From Ostrinia nubilalis (taxonomy: Eukaryota; Arthropoda; Insecta; Lepidoptera; Crambidae), in assembly GCF_963855985.1 (NCBI RefSeq), contig NC_087117.1, positions 2,925,001 through 2,989,000 on the forward strand: a DNA stretch of 64,000 bases. Reading direction: 5' to 3'. Below the pieces are notes generated by a model. That model was not told the DNA's origin. It ran no database searches and saw nothing but the letters and a program-made list of their open reading frames with translations. The stretch's first letter is position 1, and every line of letters starts with the position of its first letter. The position numbers were made by a program, and so were the translations under genes. Shown here one piece after another: positions 5,982-63,583 of the stretch.

Positions 5982-6777
5982 AGAAAAAGTCATCCGATTG
6001 GTGTAAATATTGTAATTAAATCAATCGCAGGTTTCAATCCATTAATTTATTTATCAAGTTAGGTTTTATTTGTATGAGGTCCGTATTACAATTTTATCAA
6101 CGTTAGAAACTCGATTCAATCTCACTCATATACCTACCTACTTAGATTATCGCCCGTATTCACAAACAACGCTTGCTTAGTTGAAGCAGCAAATCGAACG
6201 CACAGCGTTGAATAGAGCTCTGTGATTGGTTCGTGTGTCACCTTGTGCGTCCACGCGCACTGTGAGACCTCGGCGGCGGAGGCGTTGTCCTCAGGGCCGC
6301 GCCGCCCCTGTGTGCGATGTGTGCGGCGCACACAGGCGCCAAGACAATAGGGGCGCCGCGCCGCTACTGCCACCTAATTTTTTTAAAATGGAGTATCGAG
6401 TAAGTAGGTACAGTATGCGCAACATAGGCCTTGTACACAACAAAACAAATATTACGCTTATTAAACAAGTATCTCAATATTTATATTATGTTTATTATGA
6501 TTCACGTTTATGGTTTCATTTTACGCTTAGGGTTTTAGTTTACATTACTAAACGTTAAAACGGCGGCAGTTCTTTTGAACCTCAGATAAAGTACTAGTTA
6601 TTTTGAACCGTAGAGGCGCCGAGTTTGTCATACAATTTTTTTATGACTATGAGTGAGTTTATGAACGCAACGCGCAACCCGATGCGTGCGACACAAGCGA
6701 GATGGGGTCACGGGGATTCCCCGCCACGGGGATTTTAACGAACGAGAAAACGAGATAGCCAAGCCAAAACCACAGTA

Positions 6778-18229: not shown

Positions 18230-31309
<13,080 letters not shown>

Positions 31310-39800: not shown

Positions 39801-42800
39801 AAATCAATAAATTATTAGGATTCCTGCATTATAGATGCTAAACTTATTTATCTTAATAACTAATTTTGAAAAATAATATTGCCTCAGGCGTCCCGCGTCC
39901 CTTTCGACACACATTTTTAGTGTTTCAAGTTCTTAGTTTTTATTTTACTAAGCCTAGACGCAGACCATCGATTTTAATTGGCCGATAGTTGGGTCGGGCA
40001 GTTAGTCAGTACGCACATTATACCAATTTGGTATCGGTCGATTCTTCATACATCTTAAAATTATCGGCCAACTAAGGCTGGTTTTAGAGTCGCGCTGACC
40101 GCTCCCTGATCGTCAGCGCTGACAGATCAATATGTATGTAATTGAAGGGGAACGTTCCTTAGTGACGCTGATCGCTCTGCGCCGACGCTTCATACATTTC
40201 GGCTGTCAGCGCTGACGGTCAGCGTGACTCTAAAACCAGCCTAAAAGTCGGCGGTCTGCGCCTAGGCTAAGGGAAAGTTTTTATCTATATTTACGTTTAT
40301 GTCCTGTTGCAGGAGGTGATTCAAATAGAAATACTGTGCAAGCAGCTGTACGAGTCCCAGGACCCTATCCTCCGGGACCAGGCGGAGAAGGCTGTTGTTT
40401 CCTTCCAGGTACTTACAGAATAGAGGAAATTGTATCTATGTATTGAATATACTTTAATTATACCTCAGCTATTCTACTCGCGAAGTAGGCCAAAGCTAAT
40501 TGAAGTATCGAATCGAAGGCCTGAAACGTTCCAAATATTGAACACGAAGTGTCTGACTATACTACTCGGCTAATTTCGACTTTGTCAAAGGGAGTAGTGT
40601 AGCTGAGGTATTAGACTTTTTCGCTTCCTCCAGTATAAAGCGGAAAACTTTACGAAAAAGGTATACTTACATAGGCTGTATTTATTATGAAGAGGTATTA
40701 CGTACGTCCTTTACTTTCTCTTTTGGGTACTTACTGGGACCAGGGGCCACTCGGGCAGATTATGAGCCAAAAGCGAGCAGTAGAAAGTAAAAACAACTGA
40801 ATAAAGGTTCAGGTTATAAGTCTCGCCATAACAACAATGTTGTCAGCATTGTTGTGTTCCGGCAGTTAGAGGTAAGATAGCCAGTTCATCCGTGGATGAG
40901 GATTCCGGGAGCTCGCTTCCACCTTCGGCCTAAGCGGATCATCACTTACCATCAGGTGAGATACAAGCCAAAAGATTCCTCGTTGTGGATAAAAAAAAAT
41001 CGCTATTTTTATTAGCTCGCCGGCGGGCCCCACCTACAGGAGGCCGCTGTTTGTGCATTCTTGCTTTAATTTATCTAATTTTCGATACAGACACGCGTGT
41101 TTTAGTGTAGGCCCTTAGAGTAGGCGCACACCGTTGATTTTTCGTCGGCCGATAGTTTAGTCGGGCTGTTGATCAGTATGGGCATGTATGGGAGTGCGCA
41201 CACTACGCCGATTTGGCCGATTCTTCATACAATGTGAAATCTGGCACAACTATCGGCCAACTAAAAATCAACGGTGTGCGCGTACTCTTAGTCTATATTT
41301 AGTTTTAATAGGTATTTCTTTGTAAGATTGACCAAATATTTTTTCTTCTAGGAGTCCCCAGACACCCTGAGCAAATGCCAGGCGCTGCTGGAGCGAGCCG
41401 ACTCCTGCTACTCCCAGCTGCTGGCCGCCACCACGCTCACCAAGCTCATCAACAGGGAGAAGAACTACCAGTAAGACTGCTTTCATAACGACTGGCGTGT
41501 TAGTATAGGGGAGCCTGTCAGACACCCTGAGCAAATGCCAGGCGCTGCTGGAGCGAGCCGACTCCTGCTACTCCCAGCTGCTGGCCGCCACCACGCTCAC
41601 CAAGCTCATCAACAGGGAGAAGAACTACCAGTAAGACTGCTCTCATAACGACTGGCGTGTTAGTATAGCGGAGCCTGTCAGACACCCTGAGCGAATGCCA
41701 GGCGCTGCTGGAGCGAGCCGACTCCTGCTACTCCCAGCTGCTGGCCGCCACCACGCTCACCAAGCTCATCAACAGGGAGAAGAACTACCAGTAAGACTGC
41801 TTTCATAACGACTGGCGTGTTAGTATAGGGGAGCCAGTCAGACACCAGTAAGAACGACAAATACTACGGCTTATTGTCAAATTGTCAAGCGACTTCACAG
41901 GCGGGCGCGTGACGCCCCTCTGTCACATGTACATTCGAACGTACGGCTAAGCGGTAGGTAGGTACTTATCGCGCGAACTTGAGCGAGTGACGGAGGCTAT
42001 TACTATAGTCTGGTCTGTGAGCACGTAGAATTTTGTCCAATGACCCCAAGCTTATCGCTCGCGCGTAGTTATGTTGATATCGCGCTCGCACACTCACTGC
42101 GGGCGCCCGTCGCACAGTCGCGACAGCAATATAATTACGCGCGAGCGATAAGGATGGGTAGCTTGGGGTCATTGGACAAAATTCTACGTGCTCACAGACC
42201 GGGCTTTAAGTGGCTTTTTCCTATGATGCGGATTTCGGCACTCGTGCGTATATAATCACGCTGCTGGTTGCATGCAGGACAAAGATTTCGTATTGTGTGC
42301 CCCCAGCTTATATGTGTTCCTCTTGCGTGTAGCCCGCGTAATAGGAATAACATGTATGAAAATAGATGACAAAAAATATTAATTAAGACTAAAAAAATGA
42401 ATTTTAAGTTTATTGACTTTTTAATGTAAATAAATATTTTTCGCAGGTCTTCGACCAGTTTGTCGGTGCAGCAGCTGTTGGACATACGGAACTATGTTCT
42501 CAACTACCTGGCCACACGGCCCAAACTCGCAAACTTCGTTGTACAGGTATGTACAACCATGAATCTGAATTATCTGAACTAGCAGTCTCGACTTCGTACT
42601 TACTATCTAAAGCCCGGTCCGTGAGCACGTAGAATTTTGTCCAATGACCCCAAGCTACCCATCCTTATTGTTGTTATCGCGCTCGCACACTCACTGCGGA
42701 TGCCAGTCGCACAGTCGCGACAGCAATATAATTACGCGCGAGCGATAAGGATGGGTAGCTTGGGGTCATTTCACAAAATTCTACGTGCTCACGGACCAGA

Positions 42801-45800
42801 CTATAACAGACAATCCGTCGGTTAAGTTTTATCACCACGTAAATCATTGTTTGGCGGCTTTGACATTTTGATGCCATTCGTTAGAGAATCGAAAGACGCG
42901 TCGTTTCGTCCAATCTCCTGAAAAGTTGCTAAAAATGACTTACGTGGTAATAGAACTTAAACGACGAATTGATCGTCGTCATTGAGATACTACGTCGCGG
43001 ACTACCCGCAGTTATTAAATAAACTAAAAACATTACACTTATTTTTTGGGTAGTTTGGTAAAAAGTTGCCTATACAGGGTGGAATAGTAAAAAGTGCCCT
43101 ATGCAAGGTGGAAACGATAAATGATCTCACTCGATTATTTCTAAACTATCGAGATATCGAAAAACTGAAAACTTTTGGTAACATTGAATTTTATTTATTT
43201 ATTTATTATTGAAAAGATACACTAACGAATGACAATTTTCGGATGGATCTAGTTTATTCTGTAACCTATTAATGATACCGTTTGATAGAGCTCGTAAAGC
43301 ACTTTCAGAATTAGTAACCAGTTTTTCAATATTTTGTATAGTTTAGAAATAATATAGTGAAATCACTTATCGTTTCCACTTAATCTATGTCCACCATTTC
43401 AAAATGAGTCAACCCATTTTGCAGTTATAAATAGTATAACTAACAATTTATTATAGATATCCTTGGACCTTAATTTATTAATTTAAATATCCCTTTATTC
43501 CCAGTCGCTGGTATCCCTGTTCGCGCGAATCACGAAGCTGAGCTGGTTCGACACCGTGAAGGAGCAACTGGTGTTCCAAAATGTTATGGGAGACATCACC
43601 AGCTTCTTGCAGGTAAATATTCTAGGTTTTCGCTGTGACTTGCTGTAAGTTCGTCCGTTTAGATATTAATAAAAAGTAGCCTTAATACAGTGCCGTAGTG
43701 TGCCTTAGTTTGGGGCCCCGTCTCATTGATACGAAGGTCTCTAGTTCTCTACATTCCTGCCTAAATAGCTATAGTCTGGTCTGCAAGAACGTAGAATTTT
43801 GTCCAATGACCCCAAGCTACCCATCCTTATCGCTCGCGCGTTATTATGTTGCTGTAGCGCTCGCACACTCACTGCGGGCGTCCGTCGCAGAGTCGCGACA
43901 GCAACATTAATTATGTTGCGCGTTGTCGCGCGAGCGATAAGGATGGGTAGCTTGGGGTCATTGGACAAAATTCTTCGTGCTCACAGACCAGGCTTTAGGT
44001 GTTATTCTGGTTTATAAGCTGTAGCATTGTCCATCCTAGACTGCCTACAAAGCAAAGTGACTAAATTGCAGTTAATTAACTAAAAGCAATATAACTTCAA
44101 CAGCAAAATCTAACCTGATTTACAGTAATAGTTAAAACGGCCAAAAAGTTAAGTTTGAATTTTATTTGATTTTAGATGTCTTAGGGCCGATTCGACCAAA
44201 CTTTTTTCCGAGAATAACTCCTGGTATGTTTGGGAAATATGTCAAAACTGACGATTTATTCTGAGATTAATATTTACTCTTGTTTGGTCGAATTCACCCT
44301 TAGTTCTTAGATGTCAATTTTAAACATTTTAGAAATTAAAATAATCACGTCATTTTTGAAGGAGCCTCTTTAATTTACCAAAATAAATAATTTATGTTAT
44401 TCTAGGATAAGCCGATGTAAATTTTACTTGATTCTTTACCTTTATCATACGTTTAATCAATTTTTCTATTCTTTTCAGGGCCCAGCTGAGATGTGCACAA
44501 TAGGCGTACAGTTACTGTCACAATTAGTAGTGGAAATGAACCAGATGACTGAGAGGGAGGACGCCAATCGCGGTCTTTGCAAGCACAGGAAAATATCCTC
44601 ATCGTTCAGGTACAATAGAGGTTCATTGAGATAAGGTGTTTTACAGACCAACTAGATGCTCGCTGACTTCAGTTTCAGTATCAGTTTTGACTACTTTGGG
44701 TGTCACAAACTATTTGACGCTGACTGTTCATGATGTTCTATTTCGTATAGTGGTACGCAACACTTTGTGCAAGCCTAAGGCAGGATTCACATTGACCGGC
44801 GCGAATCGGTGCGATTTGGCGCACAGCGCAGCGTCCGTTCGGTGAAAAATGCGGTGGAAATCGCGCGTCTGCACGCGTATCCGCTGGAATACGCTCGGAG
44901 CCGACCGGCTTCCGACGCATGCTCGCGCATCCGTTCGGATTGAAATGTCAGTTAATCAGTTGTAAGCAATTACGACTCTAAGAACTGTTAATAAAATACT
45001 ATTTTCTTTACGGCTGTGTAAGTGCGCTCCGACGCGCGCCGGTATATGGGCATCGTGCCTAATTCGTGCCTTTTTTCTTACCATATCTTTATTTTTCCAC
45101 AGAGACACACAACTCTTCGAGATGTTCCGTCTCGCTTGCTCGCTCCTCTCCGCCGCTCGAGCGAAGGCATTAGACCTCAACGACGAGCGACAGATCACGC
45201 TCATAGCGGCGCTACTACGGCTCGCTCACAACTGTCTCACGTTCGACTTCATAGGAACTAACAGCGATGAAGCTTCGGACGACCTGTGCACTGTCCAGGT
45301 TAGTTCCACGATCTGTGCACTGTTCAGGTTAGTTCCACGATCTGTGCACTGTTCAAGTTAGTTCCACAATCTGTGCACTGTTCAGGTTAGTTCCACAATC
45401 TGTGCACTGTTCAGATTAGTTCCACGATCTGTGCACTGTTCAGGTTATTTTCCTTCGCGCCTGGTACAAGCACAGGTGCTGATTGACGACGAGCGTCAGA
45501 TCACGCTCATAGCGGCGCTACTACGGCTCGCTCACAACTGTCTCACGTTCGACTTCATAGGAACTAACAGCGATGAAGCTTCGGATGACCTGTGCACTGT
45601 CCAGGTTAGTTTCCTCCCGCCTGGTACTAGCACAGGCTCTAAATGGCTACCCTGTGTACCGTCCAGGTCATTTTAGTGATGTAAAAACTTCAATAAGTTC
45701 TACTTTTGAATCCTCAAGGCGGGTAGGCAGGACCTGTGCACTGTCCAGGTTAGTCTCATTATCATCATCATTATCATCATCATTATCATTTCAGCCACAG

Positions 45801-48800
45801 GACGTCCACTGCTGAATATAGGCCTCCCCCAATGATTTCCACATTGCCCGGTTGGTAGCGGCCTGCATCCAGCGCCTTCCTGCTACCTGAATGCTGCTTG
45901 GTTCACAAGGATATAAGTAACATTTTTTAGATGCAGTGGATGGCCGAGTTCCAGACCTAATTTATTATAGTCTGAATAAATAGAAACTCATTAAAATGAC
46001 GCAGCCTTTCTTGAGTTATAAAAGGTGCAACTTAACCGTTTTTTTCAACCGACTTCAAAAAAGGAGGAGGTTCTCAATTCGACCCGTATGTTTTTTTTTT
46101 TTTCTATGTTTGTTACGCGATAACTCCGCCAATTATGAACCGATTTGAACAAATCTTTTTTCGACGTATAGGTAATACCTCAAGGGTGGTCCCATTTAAA
46201 TTTAATAATAGAAAAAACAACCCCCAAGGGTGGAAAATTGGGGATGAACTTTTTTATACGCAATATCTCCGCCGATTATAAATCAATTTGAACGATTATT
46301 TTTTTGTTGAATAGGTATTATCAAAAGGGTGGTTTCATGCGAATTTGAAGAAAATATTTCACCCCTAAGGGTGGAAAATTGGGGATGAACTTTTTTATAC
46401 GCAATATTTTTAATTTTTAGTTTTTTTTTGTGTTCACGCATTTGAAGTCGGTTTTATTTTTTTAAAAAGGTAATTATTCTATGCACAAGTGAAGATTAAA
46501 TTAGTTGGTAATTAATTCCTCAAATGCTCATCATCTTCATTTCATTTCGTCCCCGATGAGCACGAAAGCAAAAGAGCATGACCCTCTCTAAATTACCAGA
46601 GGCAAATGGAGGATTTGACTTACACTGCTAACGCTATCTGGTCAGATTGTTTGGGGAAGCCTTTGGCATAAATTATGTTATTGAAATCTCGAATGCAATG
46701 ATGAATAAATTAACAACCAATTAGAATTACCAACTCTACTATTTTACTTGGCAGTAATGAGGGTTTTCGCGAATGAAAGATCCGCTAGATGGCGGGACGT
46801 GGATGTGGGGTCTGACTGCTATAGTTCCAAAATACTGAACTGTCCTATGCATGACATTGACAGTGGGGCGCCACCGTCAATACCGGATCGCTGGTTCAGA
46901 TTTTTGCCATGTTGGAAACCATATAGTTGAACGATGGTAGCGCCCCCCTGTCATTGAGTTTGGTGGGACAGTTCAGCGTAGGTCATCTATACGTGATTGG
47001 TGGATTTTGACATATCTGTCAATGTCATGTCAAAAACAACCAATCGTGCAGCATTTGGACCTCGCGTCTACGTACGTATCTGGCGGATTTTTCATTCGCG
47101 AAAACCCTCATTGAAACCATTTATTTTCAGATACCCACATCCTGGCGACCCACATTCCTTGAATCGGGCACTTTAGACCTGTTCTTCGAGTTATACCACG
47201 CGCTGGGCGGCGGGCCGGCGTCGCTGGCGCTCGCGCTACTAGTGCAGCTGGCTTCGGTCCGGCGGTCGCTGTTCAGCAACAACGAGCGGGCCAAGTTCCT
47301 CAACCGGCTGGCGGCCGGCGTGCTGCGGATACTGGAGAACACGCAGGTGACTGTACCTTTACACTAACATTCATGTAGCCTACACTGCTAGGACGGACGA
47401 CCTTCTGGAAGCGCAGCGTGAGACGTCCACTTACAAGGTGGACAGACGACCTCCTAGGAAGCACAGCTTGGGACGTCCACCCTCAAGGTAGACAGACGAC
47501 CTCCTGGAGAGCGCAGCGTCGTACGTCCACCCATATGGTGGACAGACAACCTCCTAGAAAGCGCAGCATGAGATATCCACCCATAAGTGGACAGACGATC
47601 TATTAGAAAGCGCAGTGTAGGATTTTCTTCTACAAGGTGGACAGACGACCTGGAAAACGCAGCTTGGGACGTCCACCCCCACAAGGTGGACAGACGACCT
47701 CCTGAAAAGCGGAGCGTAGGATGTCCACTCATAAGGTGGACAGACGACCTGGAAGGCGCAGCGTGTGACGTCCACTCACAAGGTGAATAGACGACTTCCT
47801 AGGTCAAGTTCCTGAACCGGCTGGCGGCCGGCGTGCTGCGGATACTGGAGAACACACAAGTATGATTTTGATCCATATTTCTTTAGAAGAAGAAACAAAA
47901 ATCAATGAGCTATCATTTTTGTACTGAACAATTGGCACCACTGGCGATTAACATGACCTTACACTATAGTGGCGCCATCCTGGTGAGTGCAAATGCTCTT
48001 TGAGAATCATTACTTCGCAGTAACAAGCACAGCTTAAAACGTCCATCCACACGGTGGCCAGATGACCTTATAAAGGCAGGAAGGCGCTGGATGCAGGCCG
48101 CTACCAACCGCTCAATCTGGAAATAAAGTCATTGGGGAGAGGACTATGTTCAGCAGTGGACGTCCTGTTGCTGAAATGATGATGATGGATTGTCATCATA
48201 CGTGGGACACTATTTAAGTTGTGAGCCTAACTATGAAAACAAAGTAGTTTATTATTAAAATGGTATTGATTGCGTTTATTGGTATTGTCTTTCATGATTT
48301 ATGTACTTTTTAATGTGTTCAAAACACTTTTCATAGCATTTTTTCCACTCAGCTTGAGGCACCTCCAAAGCATGGTTTTTGACCGCACCGACAGTTGCTT
48401 CTGGCTACATAAATCGCTGTTCACGCGTTTAATTTTAATATATGGGTACCAAAAGAAGTGTTTAGATTTCAAGCAAGAATTTTGTAGCGTTGGACCTGTT
48501 TATTTCATATTTTGAGTGTTCAAATAGTCAGTTGTTTGACGAGACGTGTAAAAGCTCACATTTTCGTCACGAATGGCGATTCGACTATGCTGGTCAGTTT
48601 CCTTTATTAAACTGAGGACTTTTGGAAAAAAAGTGGCTGTTTACTATTAAGAATTAACCATTCTAAATTTCTCTAGTAACGTTTCTGTCATATAATCGGA
48701 TATTTCGGAAAAATAGGCGACCGTAAGTTTCAAAGTGTTCCGAGCGCATGGGACTTTTGTTGGAATTGGTTCATCTAAAAACACCTCCATAGTCGATAGC

Positions 48801-54800: not shown

Positions 54801-57800
54801 CGTGTCTTGTTAGGGGGGGCTGACGTCATGTTAGTGGGGGGGCTGACGTGTCTTGTTAGGGGGGGCTGACGTCATGTTAGTGGGGGGGCTGACGTGTCTT
54901 GTTAGGGGGGGCTGACGTGTCTTGTTAGGGGGGGCTGACGTCATGTTAGTGGGGGGGCTGACGTGTCTTGTTAGGGGGGGCTGACGTCATGTTAGTGGGG
55001 GGGCTGACGTGTCTTGTTAGGGGGGGCTGACGTCATGTTAGTGGGGGGGCTGACGTGTCTTGTTAGGGGGGGCTGACGTGTCTTGTTAGGGGGGGCTGAC
55101 GTCATGTTAGTGGGGGGGCTGACGTGTCTTGTTAGGGGGGGCTGACGTCATGTTAGTAAGGTGGACCGACGACCGCATAAACGTAGCACGAAGGCGCTGG
55201 ATGCAGGCCGTAGGAGATACTGGTCTTGCAGGGTAGGCTTATATTCAGGCGTGTATCCAACATAGAGGCAGCAAGGTTCTGAAGTAGAGCGCGTGGAAAG
55301 CGCAAAAAGTGGACCGACGACCTCATAAAGGCGCTAGATTCAGGTCGCTACAACACGCAGGTGATACTGGTCTTGCAGGGAAAGGAACATAGCAAGAACA
55401 GTCCAGAACAACTGGAACCATGGCTTATCTAGAGTCATTAGTCTCTGACTTTCCATCTGTCGTTCCCGCCGCTGCAACTCCTGTGTAGCCAGGATCTACA
55501 GCTTGACCGCCAATAAAAGAGGCCATGTACCGAAAAGCGCAGCGTAGGACGTCCACCCACCAGCTGGACCGACGACCTCATAAGGGTAGCAGGAAGGCGC
55601 TGGATGCAGGCCGCTATCAACCGATCACTATGGAAATAGAGGGCCTACGTTCAGCAGTGGATTTCCTATGGCTGAAATGATAATGATGATGAATAGTCCA
55701 ACGGTGTCGGTTTCAGATCAGAAACACGCTGTTTCGTACCCCGCTGCCACTAGATTATTGTGGTGAACCTTGTTGACAAATCATCATCATCATCTCAGCC
55801 ATAGGACGTCCACTGCTGAACATAGGCCTCCCCCAATGCTTTCCATGTTACCAGGTTGGTAGCGGCCTGCGTCCAGCGCTTTCCTGCTATGATATGATGT
55901 CGTCGGTCCACCTTGTGGGTGGACATCCCATGCTGCGTTTTCCGTTGATGACAAATAATGACAGACAATTTGTTTTTGTTTACAGGTCAATTAACGTGGC
56001 TAGTCTACATAATCGGCGCAGCTATAGGCGGGCGGGCGTCGGTCAACACGTGCGACGAGAACGACGCGATGGACGGAGAGTTGGTCTGCCGCGTGCTGCA
56101 GCTCATGGACCTGACGGACTCGCGGCTGGCGTCCGTAAGTTTCGTGCGGTCTCTGAGGCTTTTCAAGTCTCGCGCGGTCTCTAAGGCTTCTGAAGTCTCG
56201 CGCGGTCTCTGAGGTTCCTCAAGTCTCGCGCGGTCTCTAAGGCTCCTCAAGTGTCCGTAAGTCTCGCGCGGTCTCTAAGGCTCCTCAAGTCTCCGTAAGT
56301 CTCGCGCGGTCTCTAAGGCTCCTCATGTCTCGCGCGGTATCTAAGGCTTCTCAAGTCTCGCGTGCGATCTCTAAGAAGTCTCTGGGAGTCTCGCGGGAGA
56401 CGAGGCGGGCGGGCGTCGGTCAACACGTGCGACGAGAACGACGCGATGGACGGAGAGTTGGTCTGCCGCGTGTTGCAGCTCATGGACCTGACGGACTCGC
56501 GGCTGGCGTCCGTAAGTTTCGCGTGGTCTCTAAGGCTCCACAAGTATCGCGCGGTCTCTAAGGCGTCCGTAAGTCTTGAGCGGTCTCTAAGGCTACTCAA
56601 GCCTCGCGTGGTCTCTAAGGCTCCGCAAGTCTCGCGTGGTCTCTAAGGCTCCGCAAGTCTCGCGCGGTCTCTAAGGCTTTTCGATCATCGCGCGGTCTCT
56701 AAAGCTTCTCAAGCCTTGCGCGGTCTCTAAGGCTCCTCAAGTCTCCTTAAGTCTCGCGCGGTCTCTAAGGCTTCTCGAGCCTCGCGCGGTATCTAAAGCT
56801 TCTCAAGTCTCGCGTGCGGTCTCTAAGAAGTCTCTGGGAGTCTCGCGGGAGACGAGGCGGGCGGGCGTAGGTCAACACGTGCGACGAGAACGACGCGATG
56901 GACGGAGAGTTGGTCTGCCGCGTGCTGCAGCTCATGGACCTGACGGACTCGCGGCTGGCGTCCGTAAGTTTCGCGCGGTCTCTAAGGCGTCTTAATGTCT
57001 TGCGCGGTCTCTAAGGCTCCTCAAGTCTCGCGCGGTCTCTGAGGTTCCTCAAGTCTCGCGTAGTCTCTAAGGCTTCTCAAGTCTCGCGCGGTCTCTAAGG
57101 CTTCTCAAGTCTCGCGCGGTCTCTAAGGCTTCTCAAGTCTTCTCAGCTCGTCTGCTTGATCAACAGCAATGGACGGTCCACATAGCTCATACAACTGATG
57201 GCCATTTGGGGCAGATAAGTTTCAGTGGCGGTCACGGACGGAAGACGTATCCTACTCGGCGGACTGACGACTTGGTGAAAGTCGCAGGAAGCACATGGAT
57301 GTAGGTAGCGCAGGACTGTTCGTTGTGGATATCCTTGGGGGAGACCTTTGTCCTTGACATGTTTCAAGGCCAATAGAGTATTTGACACCACTAATCAATT
57401 GACATAATTTTAAAATCTGACTAAACAAGTGCTCCTTAAAGGCTACGTACCTTTTTTACGGTATTTTCACGTTCATAATTTTGCCACGTGCCACCAGTGA
57501 TTAAAATTGAATAAAATATTTGATTTGATTTGAAAATATTCTTACAGGGCGGCTGCGAGAAACTAGAACTGGCCATGATGTCATTCTTCGAGCACTTTCG
57601 AAAGATCTACGTGGGGGAACAAGTACAGAAGAACAGCAAAGTGTACCGCTGCCTCAGCGAGGTGTTGGGACTCAACGACGAGAGCCAGCTGCTCAGCGTT
57701 ATCATGAGGAAGATGTGAGTCATTTGTGGTAAAAGTTACTTCATGATCCGGTGTTAAGGTGCAATTTAGATTGACAGCGTCTCATGGAGATACATACTTA

Positions 57801-60800
57801 TTTCAAACGACAAATGCCATATCGAGGAAAAAATATAAAATGCCTTGATAAAATTTTATCCCAGGCCTTTATAGCGCTTTCAATCTTTCATACAGAACTC
57901 TTAGTGCTATATTAATGTTGTATGCTATTAAGAAATGTTTGTTGCAGTATAACAAACCTAAAGTACTGGGGCGGCAGCGAGCAGATCATAGCGAAGACCC
58001 TGGGCTTGCTGAGCGATCTGAGCGGCGGCTACTCCTGCGTCAGGAAGCTGGTCAAGCTGGATGAGACGCAGCTCATGCTGACTCATCACACAGTGAGTTA
58101 CATTTGTATTCTATATTGCTCAATACAGGAGTTTTCCCACCTCTTTTTATTTTTTATCCACAACGAAGAAGGTCTTGGCCTGTATCTCACCTAATGGTAA
58201 GTGATGATCAGGCCGAAGGTGGAAGCGAGCTTCACCCGGAACCTCAACCACGTAACTGCCGGAACACAACAATGTTGTTAACATTGTTGTTATGGCGACA
58301 GGCTTAAGTAAGATGGTGGTAGCTAGCCAGGCGGACTTAGAACAAGCTCTACCACCAACCAAACCGAGCAGAAAAATCTGCCCACACTGGGAATCGAACC
58401 CGGGACCTCGCGTCTGAAGCAGGTGGTCTCACCACTAGACCACAGAGGCGGTTATCATTCCCCTAAAGTACAGGGGGGGGGGGGGGGGACAGATCATAGC
58501 GAAGACCCTGGGCCTGCTGAGCGACCTGAGCGGCGGCTACTCCTGCGTCAGGAAGCTGGTGAAGCTGGACGAGACGCAGCTCATGCTGACTCATCACACG
58601 GTAAGAAGAAACGGGACTATTCCCGCCTCTCGTTCCCACCACTGCAACTCCTGTGTAGCCAGGATCTACAGCTTGACCGCCATAAAAACCCAACCAATGA
58701 AGGTCAAGTTTGTCCCGGGGGAAAGTTAAACTGTCATTGGACCCGCAACAAATTTCACACTGTAAGTTGTATTTTTTAGTACCAAATAGAACTGCTAAAA
58801 TCAAGTGACAGTGGGCGAGCCATCAGATCCTGATTTTCGCTGGAGCACATAAGTTCTAGAGTGGTGACCACGGGTCGGAAGACGTAGTGTGGGCAGGCCG
58901 GTCGTTGTGAAAATCTTGGGGAAGGCTTTGATCCAGCAGTGGACTTAATTTGGCTGAAACAAACGAACGCGGCTCGGTCCTTTATACACCCTCCCGTCCC
59001 GATTTCAATTTTCAAACGAAGGGGTGAGTGGACAAAGGTCTTAACTAACAAAATGAGTCATGAGTGTTTGAAAATGTTAATCTGCTCATACCACATTTGA
59101 ATCCTGAAATGTATGAATGCTTTGTTAAGGTTTGACACGTAACAAAATTGCGTGTTTTGAGCTTATTAGTCGATTTTATCATCACTTAAAACCTATGTTC
59201 ATGCAAAAAAGTCGATTCTTCAGTTTTGTCAGATAACACCTTTGTCCACTCACCCCTTCAGATATTCTATTCTATTCGCAGGCGGAGCACTTCCCATTCC
59301 TCGGCATCGCGGGCGTGGGTACCGCCGAGATGCGATGCCGGACCATGCTCTACACAGCGCTCGGCCGCCTGCTCATGGTGGAGCTGGGAGAGGACGAGGA
59401 CACCTTCCACACCTTCATGATGCCCATCACCGGTGAGTACCGCGCACGCTCGGCCACCCGGGCGAGCTACCGCGCCTTGCTGCACACAGCGCTCGGCCGC
59501 CTGCTCATGGTGGAGCTGGGAGAGGACGAGGACACCTTCCACACCTTCATGATGCCCATCACCGGTGAGCTACCTAAACTCGTAGAAAGGAACCACTTTG
59601 CTACCAACAGCAGAACAAAAACCAGTGAGCCACCAACAGTAGCAGAACCAGTGAGCTACATATCGTTAGAACAGGTACTAGTGGGTTACACTGAGTTACA
59701 GAACAGGAACCTGTGCTTACAACTGACGTCACTTCATAGTGGCGCATCATGCTGAATCGTAGAAATAGGTAATCCACATACTTTATGTATGATACTAATC
59801 GCATGTGAGGGTCAAACATAACCTAAGTGGTGAGCTATCGAGCCTCGCACGGCACCTGTCGCCTGCTCATGGTAGTTTGGAGAGAACGAGGACATGTTCC
59901 ACGCCTTCATGATGCCCATCACCGGTGAGTACCGCGCCTCGCTCGGCCACCCGGGCGAGCTACCGCGCCTCGCTCGGCCACCCGGGCGAGCTACCGCGCC
60001 TCGCTCGGCCACCCGGGCGAGCTACCGCGCCTCGCTCGGCCACCCGGGCGAGCTACCGCGCCTCGCTCGGCCACCCGGGCGAGCTACCGCGCCTCGCTCG
60101 GCCACCCGGGCGAGCTACCGCGCCTCGCTCGGCCACCCGGGCGAGCTACCGCGCCTCGCTCGGCCACCCGGGCGAGCTACCGCGCCTCGCTCGGCCACCC
60201 GGGCGAGCTACCGCGCCTTGCTGCACACAGCGCTCAGCCGCCTGCTCATGGTGGAGCTGGGCGAAGACGAGGACACCTTCCACACCTTCATGATGCCCAT
60301 AACCGGTGAGCTACCTAAACTCGTAGAAAGGAACCACTTTGCTACCAACAGCAGAACAAAAACCAGTGAGCCACCAACAGTAGCAGAACCAGTGAGATCG
60401 TAAGAACAGGCACTAGTGGGCTACACTCACTTACAGAACAGGAACCTGTGCTTACAACTGACGTCACCTCATGGTGGCGGAATCCACATACTTTATGTAT
60501 GATACTAATCGCATGTGAGGGTCAAACATAACCCTAGATAAGATACGCCTATAGGTGAGCTATCGAGCCTCGCACGGCACCTGCCGCCTGCTCATGGTAA
60601 TTTGGAGAGCACGAGGACACGTTCCACACTTTCATGATGGCCATCACCGGTGAGTACCGCGCCTCGCTCGGCCACCCGGGCGAGCTACCGCGCCTCGCTC
60701 GGCCACCCGGGCGAGCTACCGCGCCTCGCTCGGCCACCCGGGCGAGCTACCGAAGTCAGAAAATTGATAATTATTTTAATTTTCATACAAATCGGATTTT

Positions 60801-63110
60801 ACAAAATGTATTTTTACCCATTTACCTAACACCCTGTATAGAAATAAAATACTATAATTAGCTTCATTAGAATATAGAGATAGGCTATTCTTTGATACTA
60901 ATTCTATTCATATTTATTTACAGCGGCGATGGAGAGTATAATAGGCTTGCTAGGTCCTCCAGAGAGTCCTCTATTCGCGTCAGAAGACGCCAAGAAGACT
61001 CTCATAGGACTAGCAAGAGACTTGCGCGGACTGGCGTTCGCGTTTAACACAAAAACCACTTACATGATGTTGTTTGATTGGATGTGAGTATGCAATATGA
61101 TTATCTATACTAATATTATAAAGCGCTAATCTCAGGAACTACTGGTCTGATTTGAAAAACTCTTTTTGTGTTGGATAGAACATTTATCGAGGAAGGCCAA
61201 CAGCTAATAGGGGCGGGGCAGTAAAGAAAAATGTTGCAAAAATGGGAAATATCATTCAAACTACGTATACTTTCATGCGAAAGAAGTCGCGGGCTCATCT
61301 AGTTCCTCTATTAGTTCTGTATTTTTAAGTTGACCGACTGTAAGGGGTTCCCTACGTTTTATCGAAAGTCGTTTCATCGAAGGTCGTTTCATCGAAGCCG
61401 TTTCATCGATTGGTCATAATCTCGAACGTACGAAATATCGAATGCCGTATCATCGAATGGTCACATTATCGAATGGTCGAATCATCGAATGTCTTAGGCT
61501 GAGTTGCACCACCTAATTTTAACCGTAACTTTGACGATAACCGGTGGTTTTTGTATGGAATTTGACTCATTTTTGACGTTTGTAAAGTTAAAGTAAGATG
61601 GTGCAACCCAGCCTTAGTGTCGAAAGGTTGTTTATTCAAATATGGCAATATGGAAGGTGACGTTAGGCTGACTTGCACCATCTTACTTTAACTGTGACAA
61701 ACGTCAAAAATTTATCAAACTCTATACATAAAACACCGGTTATCGTCATAGATACGGTCAAAGTTAGGTGGTGCAACTCAGCCTAAGTTAGTTTAAACCC
61801 AGATTTTTTCCGTAACATAAAATATCCAACTATCAAGTTTAATGACATGTGGTTAAGTATTAAGTTAAGTATCAAGAAAATGCGTTTTCAAACCAACAAA
61901 ATAGTAAAAGGGCGGTAAAGTGATTTTAATTTATAACGTCAAAGTTGGATTTCGCCGTAATGGATGTTTTTTTTTAATTGAAGGGTACAGGGGCAAAACA
62001 AGGAATATCCCTAAAATTCAAAAGTATATTTTTGATGGCAATATTTTCGATTTCCCGCGTATTTTTATTTGAAATTATAAAAAAAGCGTAAAAACAAGTA
62101 ATAGTCATATGTATTTATATTAGTAGTTTATAATTTTAAGTGAAGTGACACATAAGAATATTTTAAACTATAAAAAATTTAAATGATCATTACGTAACTT
62201 TTTGTTTTTGTGACATTTCTTGTTTTGCCCCTGTACCCTTCAATTTAGCTTGTACTAAGGCACTAAGGTAAAGGCGTGAGTGCATCATACAGCCAGGTCT
62301 GGTGGCCGAACGCTATTGTGTTATTCAATAGCTATTTTCACTTTATATTTTTTTATATCGATGTCATGATTAACTCCCTTACTATTAAAAAGTTACACAC
62401 TCAGTGAACAGTAGTTTAAAGTGACATTTCCATATTAAACGTCACTTTAAACAAGTGTTCAGCGAATTACTAACTTTATTAGTAAGTAGGTAACTCTTTA
62501 ATATACAACCTTTCGACGCTAAGATATTCGATGAATCGACCATTCGATAATGTGACCATTCGATGATACGGCATTCGATATTTCGTACGTTCGAGATTAT
62601 GACCAATCGATGAAACGGCTTCGATGAAACGACCTTCGATGAAACGACTTTCGATAAAACGTAGGGAACCCGACTGTAAGATATGCATTTGAATAAAAAA
62701 AAAATAGGATAACAACCGACGCGATAGATTTTTTCAAGTTATTAAAAATTTAGGTATCTCTTAATAAATTGCTAAGAATATTTTTATAACTGCAGTTTTA
62801 ATGCTTATAAGTTGAGACTTAAATCAATAAATGTTATTATTATTAAGTCAGTACTTGTTAATAGTACAATCCTCTATTACAGGCTAGCATTTATGTAAAA
62901 CTGTGATATTAAATTCCAGATACCCAGTGTACATAAAAGTGCTCATCCGGGGAATCGAAGTGTGGTTCGCTGAGCCGGCGCTCACCACGCCCGTACTCAA
63001 ACTAACCGCCGAGCTCGCTCAGAACAGAAATCAGCGCTTACAACTGGACGTTAGCTCGCCGAATGGGATATTGTTATTCCGGGAGCTATCCAACATTATT
63101 TGTGCTTATG
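36897..63110 (+). CDS. XPO7: Exportin-7 (RanBP16), first 17 coding exons; continues beyond the window
   Basis: Exons 36897-36911, 40313-40408, 41352-41470, 42447-42546, 43505-43612, 44479-44609, 45103-45298, 47131-47346, 50655-50801, 52202-52374, 53433-53611, 55986-56134, 57548-57714, 57948-58092, 59282-59432, 60924-61083 and 62920-63110. All introns are GT-AG and phases join without a stop to about 814 codons; the vertebrate protein is near 1090, so the last quarter lies to the right. Diagnostic segments: [100 protein letters not shown] and [20 protein letters not shown]. It belongs to the importin-beta/CRM1 karyopherins: an importin-N-like start, then HEAT repeats, binding RanGTP to carry cargo through the nuclear pore. 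Oddity: at least eight exons are followed by partial copies of themselves that carry a donor site but no acceptor, listed separately. Introns are packed with MITEs and RTE tails. Confidence 0.95.
38099..38273. mobile_element. MITE family M1 with TTA target duplication
   Basis: Ends GACTAGGCGCAGACCATCGA and TCGATGGTCTGCACCTAGGC, TTA on both sides. XPO7 intron 1. Confidence 0.85.
38880..39014. mobile_element. Short relative of the TIR element at 16124
   Basis: It carries GACCGGCACGGGAGG and, inverted, CTCGTGCCACTTCCATACCT followed by CAGGCACTGAGTTAGGCGAC, matching the arms of 16124-16895. XPO7 intron 1. Confidence 0.55.
39063..39243. mobile_element. MITE family M1 with TAA target duplication
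   Basis: Near-perfect ends GAGTAGGCGCACACCGTTGA and TCAACGGTGTGCGCCTACTC, flanked by TAA at 39060-39062 and 39244-39246. XPO7 intron 1. Confidence 0.88.
39539..39725 (+). repeat. LINE 3' tail
   Basis: GTGGTGACTGAGTTTGTTGC..CTCAGCACTTGCCAAATGTT.. ending in GATTTTGATTTTGA. The same family lies in reverse at 63584-64000. Confidence 0.65.
39952..40267. mobile_element. MITE family M1 carrying a nested MITE
   Basis: Ends GCCTAGACGCAGACCATCGA and GCGGTCTGCGCCTAGGC with TAA on both sides (39949-39951, 40268-40270). Its right arm is interrupted by the MITE at 40076-40241. Confidence 0.85.
40076..40241. mobile_element. 166-bp MITE (family M4) inside M1
   Basis: Ends GGCTGGTTTTAGAGTCGCGC and the inverse ..AGCGTGACTCTAAAACCAGCC, with TAA at 40073-40075 and 40242-40244. 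Internal TCAGCGCTGAC palindromes. Confidence 0.88.
40860..41010 (-). repeat. SINE/LINE-type repeat fragment
   Basis: GGGAGCTCGCTTCCACCTTC.. GGATCATCACTTACCATCAG GTGAGA is the reverse of the sequence at 58190-58240 and resembles 51045-51090. Confidence 0.55.
41118..41287. mobile_element. MITE family M1 with TTA target duplication
   Basis: Ends GAGTAGGCGCACACCGTTGA and TCAACGGTGTGCGCGTACTC, TTA on both sides. XPO7 intron 2, 64 bp before exon 3. Confidence 0.87.
41361..41850 (+). repeat. 160-bp tandem triplication of XPO7 exon 3 plus donor
   Basis: Units at 41361-41520, 41521-41680 and 41681-41840, with a stub after. Each unit is the last 110 bp of exon 3 (from GACACCCTGAGC), the donor GTAAGACTGC and 40 bp of intron. 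Copy 2 is identical to the exon over 110 bp; copy 3 has one change (AAA to GAA, Lys to Glu). The copies lack the TTCTTCTAG acceptor. A chance CTGTCAG precedes each unit, but using it would shift the frame. Confidence 0.95.
42007..42205. mobile_element. MITE family M5, copy 1
   Basis: Ends AGTCTGGTCTGTGAGCACGT and ACGTGCTCACAGACCGGGCT; next to them AATTTTGTCCAATGACCCCA is inverted too. XPO7 intron 3. Confidence 0.85.
42611..42802. mobile_element. MITE family M5, copy 2
   Basis: Ends AGCCCGGTCCGTGAGCACGT and ACGTGCTCACGGACCAGACT. XPO7 intron 4, about 65 bp after exon 4. Confidence 0.85.
42832..42960. mobile_element. Small MITE
   Basis: TTAAGTTTTATCACCACGTA and TACGTGGTAATAGAACTTAA are inverted ends around about 90 bp. 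XPO7 intron 4. Confidence 0.7.
43773..43994. mobile_element. MITE family M5, copy 3
   Basis: Ends AGTCTGGTCTGCAAGAACGT and TTCGTGCTCACAGACCAGGC, with the same CAATGACCCCAAGCT inner arm. XPO7 intron 5. Confidence 0.85.
44184..44299. mobile_element. MITE with TTA target duplication
   Basis: Ends GGGCCGATTCGACCAAAC and GTTTGGTCGAATTCACCC, TTA at 44181-44183 and 44300-44302. XPO7 intron 5. Confidence 0.8.
45299..45755 (+). repeat. Minisatellite and partial copy of XPO7 exon 7
   Basis: From 45299 to about 45445 a 29-30 bp unit (GTTAGTTCCACGATCTGTGC plus ACTGTTCAG) repeats five times; it contains the last bases of exon 7 (CTGTGCACTGTCCAG) and its GTTAGT donor. At about 45486-45604 the last 119 bp of the exon recur with two changes, both synonymous (CGA/CGT, GAC/GAT), again followed by GTTAGT. 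A further CCTGTGCACTGTCCAGGTTA sits at 45731. Confidence 0.92.
45760..45895 (-). repeat. RTE LINE 3' tail, reverse
   Basis: (ATCATC)n, then CAGGACGTCCACTGCTGAAT.. and GCGGCCTGCATCCAGCGCCT, the reverse of the tail at 10412. XPO7 intron 7. Confidence 0.75.
46047..46454. mobile_element. TIR element with CCGACTTCAAA ends
   Basis: AACCGACTTCAAA at the left and TTTGAAGTCGGTTT at the right, enclosing repeated GGGTGGAAAATTGGGGATGA blocks. XPO7 intron 7. Confidence 0.75.
46758..47110. mobile_element. MITE abutting XPO7 exon 8
   Basis: Ends TGAGGGTTTTCGCGAATGAA and TTCATTCGCGAAAACCCTCA. The right end is only 20 bp before exon 8. The interior has another inverted pair (ACTGAACTGTCC/ GGACAGTTCAG). Confidence 0.82.
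47400..47800 (+). repeat. Minisatellite of RTE-derived units, XPO7 intron 8
   Basis: About seven units of 50-60 bp based on GGTGGACAGACGACCTCCT..AGCGCAGCGT..GACGTCCACC. The motif corresponds to the RWTDDL region of the RTE tail. Confidence 0.8.
47803..47859 (+). pseudogene. Partial copy of XPO7 exon 8 with acceptor-like and donor-like ends
   Basis: 57 bp matching the last 57 bp of exon 8 ([20 protein letters not shown]). Four changes: one at the first codon (GCC/GTC) and three synonymous (CTC/CTG, ACG/ACA, CAG/CAA). It is preceded by GACTTCCTAG and followed by GTATGA, and both edges are in phase 0. It could therefore be read as a 19-codon cassette exon, or be a relic. Confidence 0.85.
48040..48192 (+). 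repeat. RTE LINE 3' tail
   Basis: GGAAGGCGCTGGATGCAGGC..TTCAGCAGTGGACGTCCTGT..ATGATGATGAT. XPO7 intron 8. Confidence 0.75.
48201..49491 (-). pseudogene. Degenerate mariner-family element
   Basis: Inverted ends share GGCACTATTTAAGTTGTGAGCC-like sequence (ACTATTTAAGTTGTGAGCCT at 48210 and the reverse at 49487), and the right end abuts TA. Minus-strand remnants read [20 protein letters not shown].. and [14 protein letters not shown] (49109-48927), then further on [10 protein letters not shown] and [20 protein letters not shown] (about 48590-48280), in mariner order, with stops and frame breaks between. No intact transposase. XPO7 intron 8. Confidence 0.8.
49583..50191. mobile_element. TIR repeat with GGGTTCCGTA ends
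   Basis: AGGGTTCCGTAGCCAAATGG at the left, TACGGAACCCT at the right, and a (TCTG)n/(TCCG)n run near the left end. XPO7 intron 8. I see no gene in 50192-50654. Confidence 0.7.
51045..51300 (+). repeat. SINE/LINE mosaic
   Basis: GTGATGATCAATCAGGCGTG..GAGCTTCACCCGGAA matches the head at 58196, and AACAATGTT/AACATTGTTGTTATGGTGACAG matches the middle of that same repeat. A LINE-tail-like piece lies between. XPO7 intron 9. Confidence 0.6.
51619..51774. mobile_element. 156-bp TIR element
   Basis: TACAGGATGTCCCAAAAGTA and TACTTTTTGGGGCACCCTGTA are inverted apart from small differences; GTGTCAA/TTGACAC extend the arms. XPO7 intron 9. Confidence 0.78.
52793..53028. mobile_element. hAT-type MITE with 8-bp target duplication
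   Basis: Starts CAGCGGTTCCCAAACTTATT and ends CCACTTTGGGAAAGACTG; CCGTAGAG is directly repeated at 52785-52792 and 53029-53036. CAGNGGTTCCCAAA ends are typical of hAT. XPO7 intron 10. Confidence 0.9.
53126..53274. mobile_element. Palindromic MITE
   Basis: TGTATATGTCAACGTGAAAT and the inverse ATTTTACGGTGACATATACA, with inner TCTGTCAG/CTGACGGA arms. Same family as the inner palindrome of 14556-14872. XPO7 intron 10. Confidence 0.75.
53810..53956 (+). repeat. G-rich minisatellite, block 1
   Basis: Units of CTGACGTCATGTTAG or CTGACGTGTCTTGTTAG followed by 6-14 Gs. Two TGACGTCA octamers. It lies between exon 11 and its copy. Confidence 0.85.
53957..54135 (+). pseudogene. Near-complete copy of XPO7 exon 11 without acceptor
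   Basis: About 178 bp match exon 11 with a single synonymous change (CTG/TTG). The preceding sequence GGGGGGCTGACTTAAT has no splice acceptor. The copy ends CTTGCAG G followed by GTAGGC, a weakened donor compared with the native GTAAGT. Confidence 0.93.
54136..54720 (+). repeat. Hybrid array of RTE tail fused to the exon 11 3' end
   Basis: Repeated blocks read GGTGGACCGACGACC..GGCGCTGGATGCAGGCCGCT (RTE) continuing directly into CAACCCGCAGGAGATACT..CTTGCAGGG (last codons of exon 11 and donor), then TATTCAGGCG. The join lies at shared CAACC. A related stretch is at 55158-55400. Confidence 0.85.
54745..55157 (+). repeat. G-rich minisatellite, block 2
   Basis: About 17 units of roughly 24 bp, alternating CTGACGTGTCTTGTTAGGGG and CTGACGTCATGTTAGTGGGG types, with runs of 7 Gs. 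Seven TGACGTCA (CRE-like) octamers. Long G runs could form quadruplexes. XPO7 intron 11. Confidence 0.9.
55158..55400 (+). repeat. Second hybrid RTE / exon 11-end array
   Basis: GGCGCTGGATGCAGGCCG joined to AGGAGATACTGGTCTTGCAG and GGTAGGCTTATATTCAGGCG, followed by another partial unit. Confidence 0.8.
55520..55690 (+). repeat. RTE LINE 3' tail
   Basis: GGACCGACGACCTCATAAGG..GCGCTGGATGCAGGCCGCTA.. ending ATAATGATGATGA. XPO7 intron 11. Confidence 0.75.
55781..55942 (-). repeat. RTE LINE 3' tail, reverse
   Basis: (TCA)n, GGACGTCCACTGCTGAACAT.., GTCGTCGGTCCACCTTGTGG; reverse of the tail at 55520, ending about 43 bp before exon 12. Confidence 0.75.
56403..56511 (+). pseudogene. Partial copy 2 of XPO7 exon 12 with GTAAGT donor
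   Basis: The 109 bp match 56026-56134 with one synonymous change (CTG/TTG); donor GTAAGTTTC is kept. The upstream edge GGGAGACG replaces the native exon part, and no acceptor is present. Confidence 0.93.
56855..56963 (+). pseudogene. Partial copy 3 of XPO7 exon 12 with GTAAGT donor
   Basis: Same 109-bp segment; one change makes TCG into TAG (a stop in the native frame). The flanking sequence is the same as for copy 2, so copies 2 and 3 came from a 452-bp unit duplication. Confidence 0.93.
57225..57375 (+). repeat. Divergent RTE LINE 3' tail
   Basis: GGCGGACTGACGACTTGGTG..GTCGCAGGAAGCACATGGAT..CTTGGGGGAGACCTTTGTCC. Weak but collinear with the other tails. XPO7 intron 12. Confidence 0.55.
58190..58455 (-). 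repeat. tRNA-derived SINE, reverse
   Basis: On the minus strand it starts with a tRNA-like head (CTCTGTGGTCTAGTGGTGAG and the B box GGTTCGATTCC). On + it ends GAATCGAACCCGGGACCTCG..CCACTAGACCACAGAGGCGG. It lies between exon 14 and its copy. Confidence 0.75.
58462..58600 (+). pseudogene. Near-complete copy of XPO7 exon 14 with a 16-G tract
   Basis: Starts CCTAAAGTAC as in the exon; the codons for GGSEQ are replaced by a run of 16 Gs and ACAG; then ATCATAGCGAAGACCCTG.. to CATCACACG and the donor GTAAGA. Five differences from the exon outside the G tract, all synonymous (TTG/CTG, GAT/GAC twice, GTC/GTG, ACA/ACG). No acceptor. Confidence 0.93.
59484..59564 (+). pseudogene. Partial copy 2 of XPO7 exon 15
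   Basis: 81 bp identical to the last 81 bp of exon 15, followed by GTGAGC. Upstream is one unit of the 31-bp array. Confidence 0.95.
59930..60205 (+). repeat. 31-bp GC-rich minisatellite, XPO7 intron 15
   Basis: About nine near-identical units of GAGCTACCGCGCCTCGCTCG plus GCCACCCGGGC. Related units at 59436-59468 and 60652-60752. Decayed exon 15 ends (TTCATGATGCCCATCACCGG with GTGAGT) precede the blocks at about 59907 and 60632. Confidence 0.93.
60225..60305 (+). pseudogene. Partial copy 3 of XPO7 exon 15
   Basis: The same 81-bp segment with four changes: GGC/AGC (Gly to Ser) and three synonymous (GGA/GGC, GAG/GAA, ATC/ATA). Followed by GTGAGC. Confidence 0.93.
61104..61302 (+). mobile_element. 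Helitron-like element, 21 bp after XPO7 exon 16
   Basis: A|TC at the left (TCTATACTAATATTATAAAG) and CTAG|T at the right, the pattern seen at 13680-13899. XPO7 intron 16. Confidence 0.72.
61497..61613. mobile_element. MITE family M3 inside the left arm of the foldback element
   Basis: GGCTGAGTTGCACCACCTAA..GATGGTGCAACCCAGCC with TTA on both sides. The uninterrupted site (ATCTTAGCGTCGAAAGG, inverse) is visible in the right arm, which proves the insertion. Confidence 0.9.
61666..61783. mobile_element. MITE family M3, second copy in the foldback element
   Basis: GGCTGACTTGCACCATCTTA..GTTAGGTGGTGCAACTCAGCC, opposite orientation to the first copy, TTA/TAA flanks. Confidence 0.82.
61977..62247. 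mobile_element. TIR element in the interior of the foldback element
   Basis: AATTGAAGGGTACAGGGGCA and TGCCCCTGTACCCTTCAATT, with CAAAACAAG/CTTGTTTTG extending the arms. Confidence 0.75.
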
Positions 63111-63312
63111 GTGAGTTACAATCGATTATAATAAGATCAACAGTTGTAGAACAGGGCCCAGTGAGCTACAAACACTCGTAGTATAGGAACCAGTGAGCTA
63201 CAACCACGCGCAGAACAGGTACCAGTGAGCTACCAAAAGTTGTAGAACAGTACAGTAACCAGTGAGCTACAAACAGTGTCAACAGGGGCCAGTGAGGTAC
63301 AAACACTCGTAG

Positions 63313-63400
63313 AATAGAAACCAGCGCTTACAACTGGATGTTAGCTCGCCGAATGGGATATTGTTATTCCGAGAGCTATCCAACATTATTTGTGCATACG
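63313..63400 (+). pseudogene. Partial copy 2 of XPO7 exon 17
   Basis: 88 bp matching 63023-63110 with six differences, all synonymous (AAC/AAT, AAT/AAC, GAC/GAT, CGG/CGA, GCT/GCA, TAT/TAC). Followed by the same GTGAGTTACAATCG intron start. Between the copies are about 31-bp units of the type CCAGTGAGCTACAA..TCGTAGAACAG. Confidence 0.95.
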
Positions 63401-63535
63401 GTGAGTTACAATCGGTTATAATAAGATAAACAGTTGTAGAACAGAACTCAGTGAGCCACAACCAATCGTAGAACAGGTATCAGTGAGCTACCAGCAGTCT
63501 CAGAACAGTAACCAGTGAGCTACAAACACTCGTAG

Positions 63536-63583
63536 AATAGAAACCAGCGCTTACAACTGGACGTTAGCTCGCCGAATGGGATA
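63536..63583 (+). pseudogene. Partial copy 3 of XPO7 exon 17, cut by a LINE
   Basis: 48 bp of the same segment, with AAT and AAC as in copy 2 and GAC as in the native exon, broken at GAATGGGATA by the LINE tail. Confidence 0.88.

Follow-up and report, generated by a model that had tools for sequence, protein, structure and literature searches.

Why should introns hold partial copies of the exons that precede them, and why copies of one exon end alone? The question is raised by a 64,000-nucleotide (nt) stretch of the genome of the moth Ostrinia nubilalis (the window; positions 2925001-2989000 of contig C30, NC_087117.1, in an assembly of 495.4 Mb and 52 contigs), which contains exons 2-17 of the exportin gene XPO7. 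An earlier model-made note on the letters of the window (the sequence-only reading) had described exons 3, 7, 8, 11, 12, 14, 15, and 17 as each followed by copies of their 3' portion with the 5' splice site (donor), offering a ladder of competing donors or decoys for U1. The copies themselves were borne out by blastn, and their one-sided placement is the main finding here: the 3' part of the exon was copied downstream of 9 of the 23 exons tested, and the acceptor side was copied upstream of none.

Positions are given in window numbering, continued past 64000 over the adjoining sequence of the same contig (loci L009-L013). The gene spans 36.9-77.4 kb and has 24 exons; exons 2-17 map to 40313-63110 and exons 18-24 to 66828-77393. 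A 692-amino-acid (aa) query from joined exons matched exportin-7-B isoform X13 of Ostrinia furnacalis (P0001) at 100% identity; on this protein, the Pfam domains TPR_XPO7 and IBN_N were detected, and exons 2-24 joined showed a single mismatch to this protein in 1091 residues. By this match, the gene is XPO7. A candidate exon 1, encoding MAEEQ and followed by the donor GTGAGT, lies at 36897, outside the copy search, which took exons 2-24.

For this search, each exon with 80 nt on either side was compared by blastn (E<=1e-4) with positions 36000-80000, and rows covering 15 nt or more of the exon were counted. Same-strand partial copies of the exon 3' part were found behind exons 3, 7, 8, 11, 12, 14, 15, 17, and 20, and copies were absent from this gene region for the other 14 of the 23 exons. 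All 32 matched rows lay downstream of the native exon, and within the gene region every match holding 15 nt or more of an exon fell in the intron just after that exon. Chance matches numbered 0 for all 23 exon queries in each of 20 dinucleotide shuffles. The earlier count, half of sixteen exons, was correct for exons 2-17, as was the numbering; for the whole gene, the figure becomes 9 of 23.

Upstream copies of the acceptor side were sought by blastn and in a per-base map of local duplication and were found for 0/23 XPO7 exons. Donor-side and acceptor-side exons thus stood at 9 versus 0 (binomial p 0.0039), or 9/22 versus 0/22 (Fisher p 0.0014), in agreement with the earlier claim that this is not random segmental duplication. 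In the per-base map, exons were always the upstream member, with a fraction having an upstream copy of 0.0 in all 23. Local-duplication coverage was maximal at the donor (a mean of 0.41 over the last 20 exon nt, n = 22), and upstream-copy coverage was 0.0 from -60 to +120 around 22 acceptors. A nonrandom polarity, in which the exon 3' part and its donor are copied downstream without an acceptor, is therefore supported. The native exons concerned in the window (from the exon map) and their copies are as follows.

41352-41470, plus strand: native exon 3, exon end and donor CCA/GTAAGA
41519-41846, plus strand: two further 160-bp units of exon 3 (exon positions 8-119, donor, and 48 nt of intron), starting at 41519 and 41679
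45103-45298, plus strand: native exon 7
45279-45447, plus strand: 29-bp array of the exon 7 end and donor, 5.8 units, unit 1 being the native junction
45486-45611, plus strand: copy of exon 7 positions 78-196 with donor, 126 bp, 98.4% identity
45731-45763: short copy of exon 7
47131-47346, plus strand: native exon 8
47802-47861, plus strand: copy of exon 8 positions 159-216 with a weak donor (CAA/GTATGA), behind a 50-bp array at 47391-47803
53433-53611, plus strand: native exon 11
53957-54145, plus strand: copy of exon 11 positions 2-179 with donor, 98.4% identity
53724, 54224, 54382, 54629, 55208, and 55352: six short copies of the exon 11 end
55986-56134, plus strand: native exon 12
56403-56592, plus strand: exon 12 copy 1, positions 41-149 with donor and intron
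56855-57044, plus strand: exon 12 copy 2, positions 41-149 with donor and intron
57948-58092, plus strand: native exon 14
58462-58605, plus strand: copy of exon 14 positions 10-145 with donor, adjoining a tRNA-like element at 58379-58449 (minus strand)
59282-59432, plus strand: native exon 15
59470-59569, plus strand: copy of exon 15 positions 57-151 with donor
59860-59974, plus strand: copy of exon 15 positions 85-151 with donor and 49 nt
60211-60310, plus strand: copy of exon 15 positions 57-151 with donor
60583-60699, plus strand: copy of exon 15 positions 83-151 with donor and 49 nt
62920-63110, plus strand: native exon 17
63311-63477, plus strand: copy of exon 17 positions 102-191 with donor and intron
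63534-63583, plus strand: copy of exon 17 positions 102-151, cut short of the donor

Copy identities lay between 75 and 100%, and the repeats had periods of 29-452 bp. With the native unit included, Tandem Repeats Finder called the exon 3 tandem at 41359-41846 (period 160, 3.0 copies). The first copies started at exon position 8 in exon 3, 78 in exon 7, 159 in exon 8, 2 in exon 11, 41 in exon 12, 10 in exon 14, 57/83/85 in exon 15, 102/147 in exon 17, and about 0 in exon 20. Most copies included the 3' end of the exon, the exceptions being found among the exon 20 rows and in the exon 17 copy at 63534; since the latter stops before the donor, the earlier statement that the pattern always ends past the donor applies to most copies, not all. 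The match of the exon 8 copy extended just 2 nt beyond the donor. Exon 20, which lies beyond the window, is followed by an array of 4-5 units, the rows of which hold either its first 65 nt or its last 31 nt with the donor. A single exon 20 copy extends 5 nt upstream over the acceptor AG, so that absence of the acceptor, also claimed earlier, is general but has this exception. For exon 20, and likewise for a zinc-finger exon elsewhere, the copy lacks the middle of the exon. A far copy of the last 45 nt of exon 17 was also observed beyond the window (66275-66320, L009), preceded by a T-rich TTCAG and with its donor kept; it could be spliceable as a micro-exon.

Whether the copies carry intact donors was read from 19 aligned copies, corresponding to 20 of the 32 rows, and from nine further rows read separately. 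The alignment of three copies stopped short of the donor (45366 for exon 7, 63534 for exon 17, and 69625 for exon 20), and the GT was intact in all 16 others. It was kept in 7/9 of the further rows and lost in two short exon 11 copies (54224 and 55352). In the exon 20 array, five junctions were intact, and in the 29-bp array of exon 7, GT was present in four of five extra units. The presence of the 5' splice site was thus confirmed for most copies, with the GT lost in the two exon 11 copies and a weak site in exon 8. As most copies keep GT, there is no clear sign of selection removing extra donors.

When the native exon was extended to the donor of a copy, a stop codon was met in 15/16 cases. 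The exception was the exon 15 copy at 59470, use of whose donor would add 132 nt (44 aa) in frame and stop-free. At the protein level, P0001 of O. furnacalis was consistent with first-donor splicing of all exons from exon 2 onward (1090/1091 aa), and no isoform sequence with copy-derived residues was met among the 120 matches listed, of which two were Ostrinia entries. P0001 is annotated as isoform X13 and P0027 as X14, a numbering that hints at many predicted isoforms. Among 56 distinct differences between native exons and 20 copies (exon 20 excluded), 35 were synonymous and 21 nonsynonymous, with p 0.0001 or less against neutrality of the copy alone. A model that includes synonymous change of the native exon gave p 0.05-0.14 under GC-biased mutation and 0.0003-0.01 without GC bias. 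The synonymous excess may reflect coding constraint on the copies, but it departs less from expectation under the model with native-exon change and GC bias. In-frame stop codons in the native frame were present in two copies.

The pattern was also sought outside XPO7, with an exon finder trained on XPO7 that recovered 21/22 exons exactly on that training gene. A 200-kb survey stretch, C30:2600001-2800000, covers a zinc-finger cluster, dense in zf-AD and C2H2 zinc-finger exons (two zf-AD exons fell under the Pfam cut-off). Donor-edge copies within 3 kb were found for 8/46 predicted exons of this cluster, and acceptor-edge copies alone for 0/46. Of those eight, five had downstream donor-edge copies alone, two also had acceptor-edge copies, and one had an upstream copy only; four of the five downstream-only exons look clear on inspection, and the fifth, at 6740, is a lysine-rich stretch. 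Beside XPO7, the ATP synthase beta gene occupies 88100-99040 on the minus strand (L011-L012), and three downstream copies of the end of its terminal exon carry TGA and AATAAA. Copies were found for 2/11 predicted exons at this locus, one of them being a terminal-exon copy called as an exon. There were no copies in 5 predicted exons of window positions 1-36000, and 0/10 predicted exons had copies on contig C1; the C1 exons belong to an AMP-binding gene and a glycosyl hydrolase 1 gene, and one of the ten is probably a repeat. The wider survey on other contigs covered 20 kb and eight 3-kb loci, two of them inside those 20 kb.

Under a stricter score, 15/57 donor edges had a downstream copy and 2/57 acceptor edges an upstream copy, raw counts in which the copy region 59883-60305 was miscalled as an exon, exon 15 had an incorrect donor, and a terminal exon was included. 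Corrected by removal of that copy region and the terminal exon, the counts were 13/55 for donors versus 1/55 for acceptors (p 0.0009). XPO7 is thus an extreme case, and the wider claim is based mainly on one contig. The ATP synthase beta copies hold a stop codon and a poly(A) signal in place of a donor, which suggests a rule that takes in the exon 3' end together with whatever lies behind it, rather than one tied to the 5' splice site.

We consider it moderately likely that the copies are the remains of ordinary local tandem duplication and minisatellite expansion, of the "mirage" type, filtered by selection. A duplicated unit would begin within the exon and end in the intron beyond the donor. 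After duplication of a 3' end, the native junction would stay first in the transcript, beside the native acceptor; with splicing at the first donor, or cleavage at the first poly(A) site, all later sequence would be discarded and the duplicate would be silent. A 5'-end duplicate, in contrast, would place an extra acceptor and a partial exon ahead of the native exon, and the extra acceptor, if used, would damage the mRNA, so that such alleles would be lost. Surviving copies would drift and expand as intronic repeats. We infer that the polarity is mainly this selection filter: one-sidedness would arise because a donor-side duplicate is silent with first-donor use and an acceptor-side duplicate often is not, and no function of the copies is needed. 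Duplication across an acceptor-side boundary in potato altered splicing and created a new intron (PMC4974935), and the boundary repeats of amphioxus are reported to leave splicing intact (PMC3087553, PMC3902484).

Several points weigh against a filter as the whole account. Tolerance alone predicts donor coverage close to that of neutral sequence, yet donors exceeded non-exonic points in coverage by a factor of about 4-5 (13/55 versus 148/2930, p 4e-6). An excess was also seen outside XPO7 (5/35 versus 116/2640, p 0.019) and within it, in comparison with its own intron points (8/20 versus 32/290, p 0.0015). This excess carries the caveat that copies of a conserved native exon stay recognizable for longer. 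Copy starts bunch near the exon start, within 10 nt in 4/9 exons (p 0.002 under a rough model), a feature that the filter leaves unexplained. Where splice sites are duplicated, a downstream donor can be favored by its nearness to the acceptor, so that first-donor use is not assured. The amphioxus globin paper reports duplication of both boundaries. Because the filter does not fully explain why donor coverage exceeds that of neutral sequence, there is still room for a mutational preference at donors. In such a hotspot, 5' splice junctions would provoke local duplication apart from selection, for example by transcription- or splicing-linked pausing or R-loops; besides the donor excess, introns 12 and 23 hold arrays from 3-4 nt past the exon end onward, and no array reaches an acceptor or the 60 nt ahead of one. 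However, detection is biased to exons, given the conserved native copy, the terminal exon of ATP synthase beta shows an equal polarity without a donor, and the predicted exons on the other contig had no copies. A hotspot is thus unlikely, and it is just as doubtful that junctions in this moth lineage are true duplication hotspots that steadily seed the introns of many genes with exon-end copies and spare donors.

Regulation of XPO7 output by the copies, through alternative 3' exon ends or donor competition, is quite unlikely. It would fit the mostly synonymous differences, the GT kept by most donors, the in-frame insert from one exon 15 copy, and the X13 and X14 annotations of the relative's proteins. 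However, the synonymous excess is partly expected when the native exon itself changes mainly synonymously, nearly all copy donors lead to a stop codon, two copies have native-frame stops and two short ones lack GT, and no isoform with copy-derived residues stood among the matches listed. No evidence was found for a ladder of working donors or U1 decoys, and this reading was not adopted: the relative's protein fits the first donor, and the terminal-exon case has no donor at all. False tandem duplication from merged haplotypes, the alternative named in the sequence-only reading, is very improbable and was also rejected as the leading explanation. Partial units are nested between unique flanks, their numbers, boundaries, and identities differ, the exon 20 copies have internal deletions, and other genes show equal polarity; no whole stretch was found twice with both flanks, the acceptor flank being present over only 5 nt, in the one exon 20 copy. 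Capture of exon ends by a transposon might be suggested by the tRNA-like element beside the exon 14 copy, but it is hardly credible, as the copies of exons 3, 12, and 17 (and, by eye, exon 7) stand in tandem with their own intron flank and every exon match of at least 15 nt in the gene region is confined to the intron after its exon.

The structure seen in XPO7 has known parallels. In amphioxus, "mirages" are minisatellite-like tandem repeats across exon-intron boundaries, described for Adh3 and the globins BflGb6 and BflGb9 (PMC3087553, PMC3902484), with TnC and PGBD5 cited as further mirage genes (PMC3902484). As there, the XPO7 units are tandem, tens to ~160 bp long, and composed of an exon end and splice site, with the extra signals intronic; a unit spanning the exon-intron junction is seen, for example, at 41359-41846 (160-bp unit). 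Unlike the amphioxus cases, the host is a moth and nine exons of one gene are affected, and whereas the globins show both boundaries duplicated, XPO7 does so only at the exon 3' boundary. We read the XPO7 copies as a mirage-type event in an insect, with donor-side polarity. The intron gain in potato RdRp (PMC4974935) likewise involved a local tandem duplication carrying a splice site; there, however, the acceptor side or an exonic AGGT was duplicated and gave a new intron, whereas in XPO7 the donor side was duplicated and nothing in the protein points to a new intron. Titles and abstract openings in the open-licence literature yielded no report of such copies in Ostrinia or other Lepidoptera.

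Several XPO7 arrays look like ordinary intronic minisatellites, with periods of 28, 29, 31, 32, and 45-50 bp. Unlike ordinary ones, however, those in introns 7, 12, and 23 start at the 5' splice site or a few bases away, and the array of intron 7 holds exon sequence, as that of intron 17 seems to by eye. The 28-bp array of intron 12 begins 3 nt past the end of exon 12 (56137), and a ~45-bp array in intron 23 (76299-76542, L010) begins 4 nt past the exon end without exon sequence. No array in XPO7 introns overlapped an acceptor or lay within 60 nt before one. A degenerate minisatellite of ~32 bp with CCAGTGAGC donor-like cores is common to introns 15 and 17 (59562-59725 and 63158-63336; 70% identity), on account of which a mobile minisatellite was considered, as a candidate only. 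By eye, a fragment of exon 17 seems to be fused to the donor region in the 32-bp repeat of intron 17. Intron 15 also holds GC-rich arrays of a 31-bp unit (59930-60222 and 60655-60752, with 99-100% matches), which seemingly derive from donor-proximal sequence, again by eye.

In an alignment of P0001 with proteins of three other moths (P0002, P0003, and P0017), the sole indel at the 3' end of any copied exon was 5 extra residues at exon 3. At 41452-41472, exon 3 ends 5 codons beyond that of the other moths (INREKNYQS versus INRSTT); by eye, the former donor site now reads CAG/GGAGAA, and a donor 15 nt downstream is in use. Elsewhere in the window, a 7-unit 96-bp repeat at 24077-24744 is open in frame and corresponds to a 32-residue protein repeat.

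For annotation, the copies are a warning, as they can be mistaken for exons (as some were by the exon finder) or for assembly errors. If splicing uses the first signal, they are harmless. XPO7 offers a natural experiment on splice-site choice, with identical or near-identical donors in series in one transcript at many exons. Because the copies are one-sided, the results suggest that duplicating the 3' end of an exon is nearly free and duplicating the 5' end is not, an asymmetry of cost that bears on intron growth and on the movement of donors.

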